Assembly: GCF_041320595.1 (NCBI RefSeq)
Contig: NZ_CP166625.1
Span: 2,119,501 to 2,183,500, forward strand
DNA: 64,000 nucleotides
Origin: Pleomorphomonas sp. PLEO
GTDB lineage: Bacteria; Pseudomonadota; Alphaproteobacteria; Rhizobiales; Pleomorphomonadaceae
Reading direction: 5' to 3'
In this document: positions 32,696 to 63,840 of the stretch, piece by piece
Numbering within the stretch: the first letter of the stretch is position 1
How the letters are laid out: the number at the start of each line of letters is the position of its first letter
Program-made: the position numbers and the translations under genes
The notes under the pieces: generated by a model
Told to the model about the DNA's origin: nothing
Databases searched by the model: none
Seen by the model: the letters and a program-made list of their open reading frames with translations, nothing else

Positions 32696-33129
32696 CATTA
32701 GTTTTTACCTGATCATGCTATAGGCCTTGCACGCTATCATTGCAGCTTCCGCGATGAACACGCTTTCCGCTGCTGAATTGTTCCAAACTGTTTCGTCGCC
32801 TCGTTGGACAGAAAAATCTGTGCCACCGCCCAAAGCCAACTCGTTAAATATCCCACCGTCCGATTTCTCTCACTCCTTCTTCCAAAATGCAACGCAAACG
32901 CAACCTTGTGTTGCCTGAATCGGTCGCTCTGGGCTTAGATTTTGCGATTGTGACAAGGGCTGTGGATGAACGGTTTGATAGAGGCGTGCACTTCGCTCGC
33001 AATTGCCGCGAGCGAAGGGGTTTGTAACAGGCGCAAACTGCGCCGGCCAACGCGTGTTTGAATGGGAGAAGGTCGATCGATGCGGCAAAGCTCGGCCGCA
33101 TACCCCAGATACGTTGCTTTCGTCGACGA

Positions 33130-33252
33130 TTATACCAATTGTCGAAGATGCTGACGCATCCGCTCATTGAACCATTGTCGATTTCTCATTTGCATCAGGG
33201 ACATGAGAGATCGACAAGCAGAATACCAAGGGTTATTTTCAAGGCACCTTGG
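33130..33252. repeat. dispersed intergenic repeat, copy 1 (about 123 bp)
   Basis: By eye this is roughly 80-85 percent identical to the reverse complement of about 50822-50945. It contains a stem with arms TTGTCGATTTCTCAT (33175-33189) and ATGAGAGATCGACAA (33203-33217) and a weaker outer hairpin with CCAAGG / CCTTGG ends (33226-33252). The other copy carries a C-G pair where this copy has T-A, a compensatory change. Confidence 0.8.
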
Positions 33253-33312
33253 CATTAGCCGTCGCGCCGTCGATTCAAACGTCGGAGATTGGGTGCTGGT
33301 CGCGTGCGGGAG

Positions 33313-33349: not shown

Positions 33350-34222
33350 TCAAATCAGCCCGGAGCGTAGATTGAGAAGATACCGGCCGTATTCGCTCTT
33401 TCCGAGCTTCTTTCCAAGGGCCTCCAGCTGGTTGTGGTCGATGAAGCCGTTGCGGAAGGCGATCTCCTCGGGGCAGGCGATCTTGATGCCTTGCCGGCGC
33501 TGCAGCGTGCCGACAAAGTCGCCTGCCTCCAGAAGGCTGTCGGGCGTTCCGGTATCAAGCCAGGCGTAGCCCCGGCCCATCAGCTCGACATTGAGACGGC
33601 CGCGCTCAAGATAGGTCTTGTTGACGTCGGTGATCTCGAGTTCGCCGCGCGCCGAAGGCTTCAAGTTGGCGGCGATATCCACCACATCCTTGTCATAGAA
33701 ATAGAGCCCGGTGACCGCCCAGTTGGACTTCGGCTTGGCGGGCTTTTCCTCGATCGACATCGCCCGCATTGTCGCGTCAAACTCCACCACGCCGTAACGC
33801 TCGGGGTCGGTGACGTGATAGGCGAACACCGTCGCGCCCTCCGAGCGCGACGCCGCGCTGGCGAACAGGTCGGTGAGGCCGTGGCCGTGGAAGATGTTGT
33901 CGCCCAGGATCAGGCAGGATGGCTCGGAGCCGACGAAGTCGGCGCCAATGATATAGGCCTGAGCGAGGCCGTCCGGCGACGGCTGCTCGGCATAGGAAAG
34001 CGAGATGCCCCACTGCGCTCCATCGCCCAGCAGCCGGCGGAAGCTCGGCAGGTCGTGCGGCGTCGAGATGATCAGGATGTCACGGATGCCGGCCAGCATC
34101 AGGGCGGACAGCGGATAGTAGATCATCGGCTTGTCGTAGATCGGCATCAGCTGCTTGGATGTCACCAGCGTCATCGGATGCAGCCGCGTGCCCGAGCCGC
34201 CGGCTAGAATGATCCCCTTCAT
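33350..34222 (-). CDS. rfbA: glucose-1-phosphate thymidylyltransferase
   Basis: This 290-residue protein begins [18 protein letters not shown], the nucleotidyltransferase signature, followed by [28 protein letters not shown] and [11 protein letters not shown], giving full-length family identity. It joins glucose-1-phosphate to dTTP, the first step to dTDP-L-rhamnose. ATG at 34220-34222 is preferred because GGGAGGT lies about 6 bases upstream. The longer frame to 34285 lacks support. It is the last gene of the rhamnose set and is separated from rfbD by 208 bases containing a short repeat. Confidence 0.96.
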
Positions 34223-34352
34223 CAAACGACCTCCCATTAAGTCACTGCCTGAGAGCCTGCCCCGAAACTCTACTGGGGCGGGCATCTAGCTTCGATTTCT
34301 GCGCTTCCGGTGCTCACGAACCTCAAGTTCGCTCCGCTCCGGTTCTCGAACT

Positions 34353-47667: not shown

Positions 47668-48716
47668 AAGCGCCTGTGATCGCCTTGGCGGCGCTGTCGG
47701 TTGCCTGCATGGTGTCGGGAACCGAGGTCGTTCGAGGGGCCACCCTCACCGAGCCCGAGTGGGGCGCCTACAAGCAGCATTTCCTTGATCCGTCGGGCCG
47801 CATCGTCGACACCGGCAACGGCGGCATCAGCCACAGCGAAGGCCAGGGCTACGGGCTGATGCTGGCCTATCTGGCTGGCCGGCCGGATGACTTCGAACGC
47901 ATCTGGACCTTCACGCGCACCGAGATGCTGCTGCGCGACGACGGGTTGTCGGTGTGGAAATGGGTGCCCGGCGCCGGTTCCCACACGCCGGACCTCAACA
48001 ATGCCACCGATGGCGATCTGTTGATCGCCTATGCTCTGTGGAGCGCCGGCAAAGCCTGGCAGCGCCCCGATTACCTTGCCCTTGGCCGAACCATCGCCAC
48101 CGCGATCGCCGAGCACTGCGTGGTGACGTGGAAGGGGCGCCCCTATCTTCTGCCGGGCGCCAGCGGCTTTACGGCGGAGGACCGGCCGGACAACAGCCCG
48201 GTGGTGAACCCGTCCTACTGGGTGTTCGCGGCGCTGCCGGCGATGACCGAGCTGTTGCCGTCCCCGCTGTGGAAGGCGCTCGGCGACAGCGGTGTGGCGC
48301 TGATCGACGAGAGCGAGTTCGGTCGCCGGCGCCTGCCGTCCGAGTGGGTCAGCCTGGGGCCGGAGCATCATTTCATGGCCGACGGCTTTCCTCCCGAGTT
48401 CGGCTACAACTCGATCCGGATTCCGCTTTATCTGATCGGCGGCGGCATCACCGACCCGGAACGCCTCAAGCGCCTCAAGGCGGGCATGACGGCGGACGAC
48501 GGCAATCCGGCGGTGTTCGATCTTGCCGGCGACAGGGTGCGCGCCTCGCTGAGCGAGCCGGGCTATCGCATGGTCGTCGACCTTGCCGCCTGCGCGATCG
48601 ACGGCAGTCGGCTGTCCGAGCCCAGCCGGACCTTCACCCCCACGCTTTACTATCCCTCCACGCTGCAACTTCTCGGCTTGGCCATTGCCAGGGAGAAATA
48701 CCCCAAGTGTCTGTGA
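47664..48716 (+). CDS. bcsZ: endo-beta-1,4-glucanase BcsZ (GH8)
   Basis: This 350-residue periplasmic enzyme has a signal peptide, then WGAYKQHFLDPSGRIVDTGNGGISHSEGQGYGLMLAYL with the catalytic acid Glu, and LNNATDGDLLIAYALWSAG carrying the GH8 Asp signature. NPSYWVFAALPAM and FGYNSIRIPLYLIG complete the (alpha/alpha)6 barrel. It trims misaligned cellulose during export and is needed for normal fibril formation in bcs systems. It overlaps bcsB by 4 bases and the TPR gene by 10 bases. Confidence 0.95.
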   Translation: MKAPVIALAALSVACMVSGTEVVRGATLTEPEWGAYKQHFLDPSGRIVDTGNGGISHSEGQGYGLMLAYLAGRPDDFERIWTFTRTEMLLRDDGLSVWKWVPGAGSHTPDLNNATDGDLLIAYALWSAGKAWQRPDYLALGRTIATAIAEHCVVTWKGRPYLLPGASGFTAEDRPDNSPVVNPSYWVFAALPAMTELLPSPLWKALGDSGVALIDESEFGRRRLPSEWVSLGPEHHFMADGFPPEFGYNSIRIPLYLIGGGITDPERLKRLKAGMTADDGNPAVFDLAGDRVRASLSEPGYRMVVDLAACAIDGSRLSEPSRTFTPTLYYPSTLQLLGLAIAREKYPKCL

Positions 48717-50818
48717 ACCCACTCTCCCCCCTCGCCGTTGTCGCCGCCGCCCTGTGGCTGGGCGTGGCGCCGACCAGCCTGGCCGCCGCCGATGCCAACC
48801 GGACAGGCGATCTAGCGCAACCGACCGCCAGCCCGACGCCGACGACCGACGCGGCGGCGGACGATGTCGACGTCAGCGCGCTTCGCTATTTCGCCCGAAA
48901 TGGCGACAGCGTCCGCCTCAACCTGGAAATCAGCCGTCTGCAGGCCCTCCACCCCGATTGGATCCCGCCCACCGATCCCGCCAACGCGCCCGAGCCGCCG
49001 GACCGGGAACTCAACGCCATCTGGCAGCTCTATTCCCAGGACCATTTCCCCGAGGCGCGCGCCGCCATCGCCGCCCGCAAGGAGCGCGAGCCCGACTGGC
49101 AACCGCCCGCCGACCTCCTGACCATGCTGGACCGTGGCGAGGCGCGGCGCCGCCTGACCAACGCCTACAACCTCAAGCAATATGCGAGGGTGGTGGAAAC
49201 CGCCGCCAACGCGCCGGATCTGACGTCCTGTTCCGAGATCAACGTGATCTGGATGGTCGCCGAGTCCTTCGTGCGCACCGACCGGGCCAAGCGCGGCGAG
49301 GACGCCTACGACTACGTGCTCAAGACCTGCGGCGGCGGCGACATCCACCGCGCCACGCTCCAGAAGGCGGCGGAGCTGTTGCCCTATGCGGCGGTGCAGC
49401 GGCTGATTGCCGACGAACCGCTGGCCGCGGAGGGGACCGGTGAGTTCGCCTCCCTCAAGGACGACCTTGCCCGCCGTTTCGTGGGCGATGCCAATGCCGA
49501 TGCCAAGCTGGTCGTCGACGCGTCCTATGTCGAGCGGCTGAAGAGCATGGCCGACCAGGGCGGTTCGGTGGACGACGTCCTCAATTATGCCTGGTACGTC
49601 TGGCTGCATGGCCGCTCGCCCGCTGCCCAGGCCTATTTCGAACGGGCGCGCACCCTTCAGGATTCGGCGTCGGCGGCCGTCGGTCTCACGCTGACGCTGC
49701 TTGCCAAACAGCAATATGCCGAGGGGGAGGCCGTCATGTACGGCTGGCGCCAGACGTCGAAGGATACCATGGCCACCTATCTGGCGGCGGCGGCCAACCT
49801 TCTGTCGCAAAATCCGCCGGTAACAATTGACGCCGCGGTGATGCAACGCATGGCCGAGGCGGTTCTGACGGAACGGGATGCCGTCGCCGCCCAGCAATTC
49901 GGCTGGTATGCCCGCCAGGCCCACCAGTTGGAAACCGCCTCCGACTGGTTTTCGACGGCGCTGTCCTGGTCCGCCGACGACGAGCCCTCGGCTTTTGGCC
50001 TGACGCTGACCCGCCTCGATCTCGGCGATGTCGCAACGGCCACGCGCCTGCGGGACGCCTGGGCCGATCGCTCACCCCGCATCGCCGCCCTGGGGCGCGC
50101 ACCAGCCCCAGCCCCAGCCCCGGGCCGGAAGGCCGCTATCGAGGGGGATGTCGCCGTGACCGGGTCCATACCGGCCGCCGGGCAAGCCCCGGTTGGCCCG
50201 GCGGTGTCCACGGTGGCCTTTTCAGCTCCGATGAGCGCCAAGGCGCAACCGAAAGGCAGGCGCGTTGAGGCCTCCGCCTCGACGCCGCGTAGCGCGGGCG
50301 CGGGCAATTGCAAGGGTGTGACGGCCCCGTCGCAGTCCCAGCCGACATCCGACGCCGCCGCTCTGCGTCTGGGCTGGTGCTATATGGACCTCAAACAGCC
50401 GGCGTCCGCCCTCAGAAGCTTCGAGGCGGTTGCCGCCCGTGCCTCGGCCAGCCGTCGCGAGGAAGCCAGCTACGGCCGGGCGCTCGCCTTGCTGCGGCTG
50501 GGGCTGACCGACGAAGCGGCGATCGCCGCCACCGGCACGCCGATGTCGCCCGAGCGGGCGGCGACGCTGCAGACGATCATTCTGGCCAACCGGGCCATCG
50601 CCGCCTTCGACGGTAACCGGTTCCGGGAAGCCATTCTCTATCTCGATCAGCGGGCCGCTCTGGCGCCCGAGCCCTTGGATCTGATGACGTTGCGCGGCCA
50701 TGCCTACGTCAAGCTTGGCTCCATGGAAGAGGCAAAGCGGGTGTTCTCGGCCTTGGCGGCGATCGGCAATCCCGAGGGGCCGCGCGGGCTCAACATGATC
50801 CGCGACCAGCATGGCTAG
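48707..50818 (+). CDS. periplasmic TPR protein of the cellulose operon
   Basis: This protein is 703 residues from GTG 48707, with AGGGAG 11 bases upstream inside bcsZ. A signal peptide (PLAVVAAALWLGVAPTSLAAA) is followed by about ten helical repeats of TPR type (for example LNAIWQLYSQDHFPEARAAIAARKERE, NAYNLKQYARVVETAANAP, AALRLGWCYMDLKQPASALRSFEAVAARA). A Pro/Ala-rich linker sits at about residues 465-485. It occupies the place of BcsC but ends without the 16-strand outer-membrane barrel, so it may bridge to a separate porin or act as a periplasmic scaffold. Confidence 0.82.
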   Translation: MSVNPLSPLAVVAAALWLGVAPTSLAAADANRTGDLAQPTASPTPTTDAAADDVDVSALRYFARNGDSVRLNLEISRLQALHPDWIPPTDPANAPEPPDRELNAIWQLYSQDHFPEARAAIAARKEREPDWQPPADLLTMLDRGEARRRLTNAYNLKQYARVVETAANAPDLTSCSEINVIWMVAESFVRTDRAKRGEDAYDYVLKTCGGGDIHRATLQKAAELLPYAAVQRLIADEPLAAEGTGEFASLKDDLARRFVGDANADAKLVVDASYVERLKSMADQGGSVDDVLNYAWYVWLHGRSPAAQAYFERARTLQDSASAAVGLTLTLLAKQQYAEGEAVMYGWRQTSKDTMATYLAAAANLLSQNPPVTIDAAVMQRMAEAVLTERDAVAAQQFGWYARQAHQLETASDWFSTALSWSADDEPSAFGLTLTRLDLGDVATATRLRDAWADRSPRIAALGRAPAPAPAPGRKAAIEGDVAVTGSIPAAGQAPVGPAVSTVAFSAPMSAKAQPKGRRVEASASTPRSAGAGNCKGVTAPSQSQPTSDAAALRLGWCYMDLKQPASALRSFEAVAARASASRREEASYGRALALLRLGLTDEAAIAATGTPMSPERAATLQTIILANRAIAAFDGNRFREAILYLDQRAALAPEPLDLMTLRGHAYVKLGSMEEAKRVFSALAAIGNPEGPRGLNMIRDQHG

Positions 50819-50849
50819 TACCAAGATGCATTGAAAATGCCTCTTGGTA
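50819..50849 (+). terminator. hairpin directly after the cellulose operon
   Basis: TACCAAGATGCATT (50819-50832) and AATGCCTCTTGGTA (50836-50849) pair at 13 of 14 positions around GAA, starting at the base after the TPR gene stop. It forms one end of the dispersed repeat copy and probably also serves as the transcript end. Confidence 0.55.
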
Positions 50850-50948
50850 TTCTGCTTGCCGATTTCTCATGCCCCTGATGCAAATGAGAAATCGGCAATG
50901 ACGTCAATGAGCGGATGCGTCAGCATCTTCGCGAATTGGTGTAAACGC
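50819..50948. repeat. dispersed intergenic repeat, copy 2 (about 130 bp)
   Basis: This is the inverted counterpart of the repeat at 33130-33252. Its central stem has perfect 15-bp arms TTGCCGATTTCTCAT (50856-50870) and ATGAGAAATCGGCAA (50884-50898) across a 13-base loop. The fourth pair is C-G here and T-A in copy 1. Confidence 0.8.
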
Positions 50949-63659: not shown

Positions 63660-63775
63660 CTACATGCCTCGCCCATCGGGGAGTAGTCACCGCCCTTGGG
63701 CGGGATCGTGTCAACAGGCTTGCGTGGATGCGCATGGCACGATCAGCCGAGAAATCGGCCCGGCAAGACCGTGGC
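63660..63775 (+). ncRNA. yybP-ykoY manganese riboswitch upstream of mntP
   Basis: The conserved elements occur in order: GGGGAGTAG (63678-63686), GTCAACA (63710-63716) after a GC-rich stem (CGCCC/GGGCG, 63691-63702), and GGCAAGACC (63762-63770). This is the yybP-ykoY signature. The class binds Mn2+ and switches on Mn efflux genes. It lies 70 bases before the mntP start codon, which supports the call. Exact ends are estimated. Confidence 0.85.
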
Positions 63776-63840
63776 GCCACCTGCTTTGTGCGGACAAGCG
63801 GGGCTGGAGCGCCCGGTCTGTTGTCCGTCGGAGCCTATCG

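Follow-up and report, generated by a model that had tools for sequence, protein, structure and literature searches.

The window, by which is meant the whole 64-kb stretch of DNA analysed (positions 2119501-2183500 of the 5.48-Mb chromosome of Pleomorphomonas sp. PLEO), carries a block of rml and bcs polysaccharide genes flanked by two inverted repeats, at 33127-33260 and 50813-50947. The repeats are 88-91% identical in two blocks, bearing out the original prediction of inverted copies of approximately 123 bases. The exact ends of both copies were set from the target duplication, giving spans, flanking triplets included, of 33130-33257 for copy 1 and 50816-50944 for copy 2. Beyond what had been predicted, they carry two further hairpins, short terminal inverted repeats and a 3-bp target duplication, and approximately 27 other copies exist in the genome, so that about 29 are spread over the chromosome.

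The element of copy 1, TACCAATTG...CCTTGGCA, occupies 33133-33254 on the plus strand (R1 match at chromosome positions 2152631-2152755, 122.9 bits), between a left target duplicate TTA at 33130-33132 and a right one, also TTA, at 33255-33257 (locus L118). It folds into three hairpins, all read on the plus strand: hairpin 1 (33136-33169), CAATTGTCGAAGATGC-TGAC-GCATCCGCTCATTG, in which the GCG/CGC part is imperfect; hairpin 2 (33174-33217), whose 15 pairs, TTGTCGATTTCTCAT / ATGAGAGATCGACAA, include one G-U; and hairpin 3 (33222-33255), AATACCAAGG...CCTTGGCATT, whose outer arm is the right terminal repeat. Copy 1 is intergenic, and since the nearest gene end, that of an rmlA-like gene (33350-34285, minus strand), lies 95 bp away, with the copy past that end, it is located off any stop codon.

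Copy 2, inverted with respect to copy 1, lies at 50819-50941 on the minus strand (R1 match 2170318-2170443, minus, 149.2 bits), and its hairpin 2 (50857-50899, minus) is a perfect 15-bp stem, TTGCCGATTTCTCAT / ATGAGAAATCGGCAA. The insertion site is the stop codon of the last gene of the cellulose block, a TPR-rich, cellulose-export-like gene at 47954-50818 (plus strand; the limits are those of the open reading frame, which opens inside the previous gene). One target duplicate is thus the TAG stop codon itself, at 50816-50818 on the plus strand (locus L099, TTA/CTA, at distance 0), and the other, TAA on the plus strand, lies at 50942-50944. The central stem had been predicted to keep its pairing through a C-G to T-A change, and this change is indeed compensated between the two copies. 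Folding z-scores of the two copies are -4.6 and -4.7, none of 200 shuffles being equally stable. Elsewhere in the window, a manganese riboswitch of the yybP-ykoY family (RF00080) is found at 63666-63839 on the plus strand, with a score of 51.3 bits that barely exceeds the gathering score.

The suggestion that the two copies are the recombination ends of an invertible 18-kb polysaccharide segment derives from their inverted orientation on either side of the rml/bcs block. They are, however, merely two of about 29 scattered copies, with nothing that singles out or links the pair; their identity is approximately 88% over 123 bp, and each has its own target duplication, hence its own insertion. 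The DNA around copy 2, moreover, is not conserved in the genus, so that an inverted gene order cannot be shown. The idea thus finds no support and is extremely improbable, each of the scattered copies being explained by its own TNA-duplicating insertion.

Anatomy, mobility and hosts of the family

The element is non-coding, measures approximately 123 bp, has the ends TACCAA...TTGGTA, and has the consensus TACCAATTCGCGAAGATGCTGACGCATCCGCTCATTGA-n-CATTGCCGATTTCTCATTTGCATCAGGGGCATGAGAAATCGGCAAGCGGAATACCAAGAGGCATTTTCAATGCATCTTGGTA. In consensus hairpin 1, CAAT..GCG..GATGC pairs with GCATC..CGC..ATTG around an AA bulge; hairpin 2 is a 15-bp stem; and in hairpin 3 the right terminal repeat is accompanied by a second, internal copy. 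The two outer hairpins occupy alignment columns 6-39 and 94-127. The terminal inverted repeats are short (6-8 bp), the left end being the more degenerate. One copy in the same genome, at 4351811 (L123), has an internal deletion joined via a GCATC direct repeat, with TGA retained on both sides.

The triplet that precedes TACCAA and follows TTGGTA is T-N-A. Among the 98 copies with a TNA at both ends, the same triplet is present on the two sides in 88, where composition alone would predict 28; the flanking triplets lie outside the fold, since the two N positions are identical and not complementary. Copies in A. vitis and Asticcacaulis display the same geometry (for example TTA/TTA and TAA/TAA). 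In addition, the locus at 1448535 of the same chromosome is filled in four genomes and empty in eight, and most of the empty sites keep a single TCA, the reverse of a TGA stop; the insertion site at this locus and its orthologues (L250-L264), filled in some genomes and empty in others, is the stop codon of a gene for an OmpR-type regulator. The matched TNA triplets and the filled and empty sites together establish insertion with a 3-bp TNA duplication. The element shows several of the features by which a miniature inverted-repeat transposable element (MITE) is recognised: terminal inverted repeats, a target-site duplication, filled and empty sites in relatives, a length below 200 bp, lack of coding capacity and many copies (approximately 29).

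No autonomous partner with matching ends was detected in the same genome, either by the end pattern or among PF01609 transposases, or in the fetched loci. Its IS5-family transposases were rejected as partners, having different ends and CTAG at their boundaries, and solo TNATACCAAG sites were rejected as ends of an autonomous element, their sequences being unrelated past the end motif. Three multi-copy IS5-family elements of this genome (L293-L307) are bounded by CTAG, within which TAG is itself a stop codon. Movement would probably depend on a DDE-type transposase supplied from elsewhere that acts on the short ends, its type being suggested only by a 3-bp duplication together with ends that are short and inverted.

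Copies occur in 13 of the 14 Pleomorphomonas genomes searched, with up to 67 matches per genome. The highest number belongs to a strongly amplified, distinct subfamily (genome G007), in which several stem pairs are swapped on both sides in approximately half of the rows of alignment A3. Those named genomes that have the core 20-mer inside an element, whether complete or truncated, belong to Pleomorphomonas species or are soil MAGs (two of them), and a few copies are present in two genomes from other families of the same order. A class-wide model search recovered, among just nine candidates scored per genome, the family in the Pleomorphomonas sp. PLEO genome only. A plasmid BLAST search yielded copies of approximately 72-79% identity on plasmids of Agrobacterium vitis, Allorhizobium, A. 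salinitolerans and Asticcacaulis; large plasmids of A. vitis (L314/L315, L309, L095) carry copies of approximately 77% identity at annotated stop codons. The presence of the A. vitis plasmid copies suggests either horizontal spread or an old alphaproteobacterial family. Gemmatimonadetes 20-mer matches were rejected as family members (they extend over 22-23 bp only, and the element is absent), as was a phage origin, no match being found among phage records. Rfam gave no match above the gathering threshold at either window copy, and a known RNA family was rejected on that basis.

Positioning at stop codons

The relationship between insertion sites and gene ends was studied in 169 distinct copies, for which coding open reading frames running into either side were sought, genes being predicted with an in-house score of codon usage, for which the window served as training set, in place of a standard gene finder. 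The duplicated triplet is an in-frame stop codon in 95 of the 169 (67 TGA, 25 TAA and 3 TAG); under this codon-usage gene model the other 74, copy 1 among them, lie off an exact stop. The second most frequent distance from a stop accounts for 7 copies. The TAG codons of the three exceptions appear to derive from TAA or TGA by a later change, because the other copy of the triplet is a TNA.

Domain matches confirm the host genes, with FlgI and MetQ profiles reaching the very last codon; further matches include OmpR-type regulators, EAL/GGDEF proteins, a phosphatase, MucR and ornithine cyclodeaminase. Independent annotation is available for A. vitis, in which LysR and NAD(P)-binding coding sequences end exactly at the element boundary; other plasmid copies lie off annotated stops in the gene table used, which is incomplete.

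Part of this bias stems from the rarity of TNA outside stops in compact, GC-rich DNA. In the window, at least 27 of the 876 TNA triplets outside predicted genes are stops, a lower bound, as the gene model misses genes. A stricter control of supply was performed on the 127 copies located within 100 bp of a stop, the other non-coding TNA triplets within 100 bp being counted at each locus. Exact stops numbered 95 among these 127 copies, against 71.6 expected, a value above all 50000 simulations (maximum 91). At the 85 loci where one or more other non-coding TNA triplets lie within 100 bp, 61 exact stops were observed against 29.6 expected, a result reached in none of the 50000 simulations. TNA supply thus explains much of the stop placement, though not all of it, and an excess at TGA and TAA remains after this control.

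It could still be proposed that survivorship is the sole cause, with a transposase that takes any TNA and a stop codon that is the only TNA without cost in a compact, GC-rich genome. The 71.6 exact stops expected without any preference fit such a scheme, as does the lack of any further non-coding TNA within 100 bp at 34 of the 95 exact loci; so does the near absence of TAG, which is not a TNA (3 of 95). The excess over the simulation maximum, and the 61 against 29.6 where an alternative is present, run against it. Insertion slightly further downstream, by a few bases, ought moreover to cost no more, yet is rarer per site. Survivorship as the whole explanation is therefore conceivable, if somewhat doubtful. 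It is distinctly improbable, on the other hand, that the transposition machinery reads the stop codon itself, for instance through coupling either to gene-end structure or to translation termination at UGA/UAA, the two codons that release factor 2 reads; should that be true, the last codon of genes would give this mobile element an inbuilt safe harbour. The reading preferred here is that the bias would reflect in part purifying selection, stops being much of the permitted TNA, and in part a real target preference.

Covariation in the three hairpins

In an alignment of 55 copies, both partners change in 16 of 41 pairs, compared to 4.5 in shuffles, and sliding the partner by 1-3 columns lowers the proportion of paired cells from 94% to 33-41%. 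A further 100 copies, aligned by a fit to the structure, gave 32 of 41 co-changing pairs (20.4 in shuffles) and, in the same fitted alignment, 91.7% of paired cells (30-39% in slid controls). Covariation is present in all three hairpins. On the branches of a tree, 159 double changes lead from one Watson-Crick pair to another, and 26 lead to a mismatch. The ratio of double changes to single mismatches is 78:56 on internal branches and 81:272 on terminal ones (p 6e-13), a contrast that may be inflated by the parsimony procedure, in which ties were broken in favour of Watson-Crick pairs. As double changes weigh on internal branches and mismatches on terminal ones, we read this contrast as constraint on the spreading lineage, followed by decay after insertion. 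That a folded structure is selected, as originally suggested, or homogenised is strongly supported.

The covariation could reflect hairpin-templated mutation or gene conversion instead of selection. Imperfect palindromes are known to undergo quasi-palindrome correction through template switching; this, or conversion between copies, would match the two arms with no selection at all, and in favour of it several pairs are double-changed with few one-step intermediates (such as GC:48/CG:47). Yet right-hand hairpin columns 174/203 and 177/199 are mismatched in approximately one third of the copies, and the tolerance of wobble pairs depends on orientation, which makes a mutational origin rather unlikely, though a serious contender. 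It is slightly less probable still that the hairpins are kept for the host after insertion, as a 3'-UTR structure (a signal for mRNA stability, RNase III or attenuation) of the kind proposed for ERIC and NEMIS. Copies do sit at the 3' ends of genes, and when they are read in the direction of the upstream mRNA, 115 G-U pairs stand against 74 A-C mismatches (p = 0.026 by permutation within genomes), which hints weakly that the RNA form also matters. Orthologous copies, moreover, include compensated changes: the four at the OmpR locus display a T-A to G-C change and an A-T, G-T, G-C series. However, these occur alongside many one-sided mismatches in orthologous copies, terminal branches are dominated by mismatches, copies face either way relative to the gene (57:38), the wobble signal, itself weak, stems from a single orientation class, and neither window copy received an intrinsic-terminator call. 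Constraint during spread, with decay after insertion, remains the preferred interpretation: the hairpins would be kept mainly since copies that lose them stop spreading.

Relationship to known elements and significance

REP/REPIN sequences with RAYT are dispersed palindromes located near the 3' ends of genes, as is the present element, but to our knowledge REPs have neither terminal inverted repeats nor a 3-bp target duplication, whereas the element is 123 bp long and has both, with TNA duplicated. RIME, the Rhizobium intergenic mosaic element, is an intergenic sequence of approximately 100 bp with two palindromes, found in Rhizobiaceae; the likeness to it is by description only, and in the plasmid search the copies of the present element were limited to Agrobacterium, Allorhizobium and Asticcacaulis. 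The REP/RIME-like class that the original prediction proposed as a check was the right dispersed-repeat neighbourhood, but a MITE that duplicates a TNA target is what the evidence favours. A 3-bp TNA duplication is also characteristic of the IS1031 subgroup of the IS5 family, and a MITE derived from such an element would share it; the ends compared, those of the IS5-family elements in this genome, differ and are bounded by CTAG.

REPs also differ in size (20-40 bp; PMC3733652). Among known MITEs, the enterobacterial ERIC/RU-1 element (approximately 127 bp) is non-coding and intergenic, has strong stem-loops and a target duplication, and can affect the transcript of the upstream gene (PMC2229807, PMC3049150). 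The present element resembles it in length, lack of coding capacity, intergenic location, stem-loops and target duplication, but ERIC has TA ends, a TA dinucleotide target and one long stem, whereas here TNA is duplicated, the hosts are Alphaproteobacteria and the hairpins are three and separate. Correia/NEMIS (CREE), RUP and BOX are small structured MITEs with terminal repeats, and NEMIS RNA is a substrate for cleavage by RNase III (PMC2229807); their sequences differ from that of the element, NEMIS and RUP target TA, and a partner, IS630-Spn1, has been proposed for RUP, whereas none was found for the element in its own genome. The Caulobacter CIR is an alphaproteobacterial intergenic repeat in which the 5' part and the 3' part each form a stem-loop of their own (PMC2229807); it is marked by an exposed GANTC, and membership was rejected, as only 58 of 178 copies of the element contain any GANTC. 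No report of the TACCAA...TTGGTA family, or of bacterial MITEs targeted to stop codons, was found in the literature covered, outside which most subscription papers fall.

Taken as a whole, the repeat is very probably a non-autonomous DNA transposon (MITE) of a family undescribed in the sources searched, with RIME compared by description only. The element inserts at T-N-A and duplicates those three bases; where the duplicated triplet is a stop codon, the host gene retains that stop, its protein is unaltered, and its mRNA acquires a 3' end rich in hairpins. Once transcribed, the hairpins may influence that end of the mRNA. Harmless mobile elements need safe sites, and a 3-bp TNA target, which coincides with every stop codon but TAG and which the duplication restores, is a very simple means of inserting at gene ends with the protein unchanged. 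With approximately 170 aligned copies, filled and empty sites and deep covariation, the family allows a direct test of whether the hairpins of bacterial MITEs serve transposition or the host mRNA.
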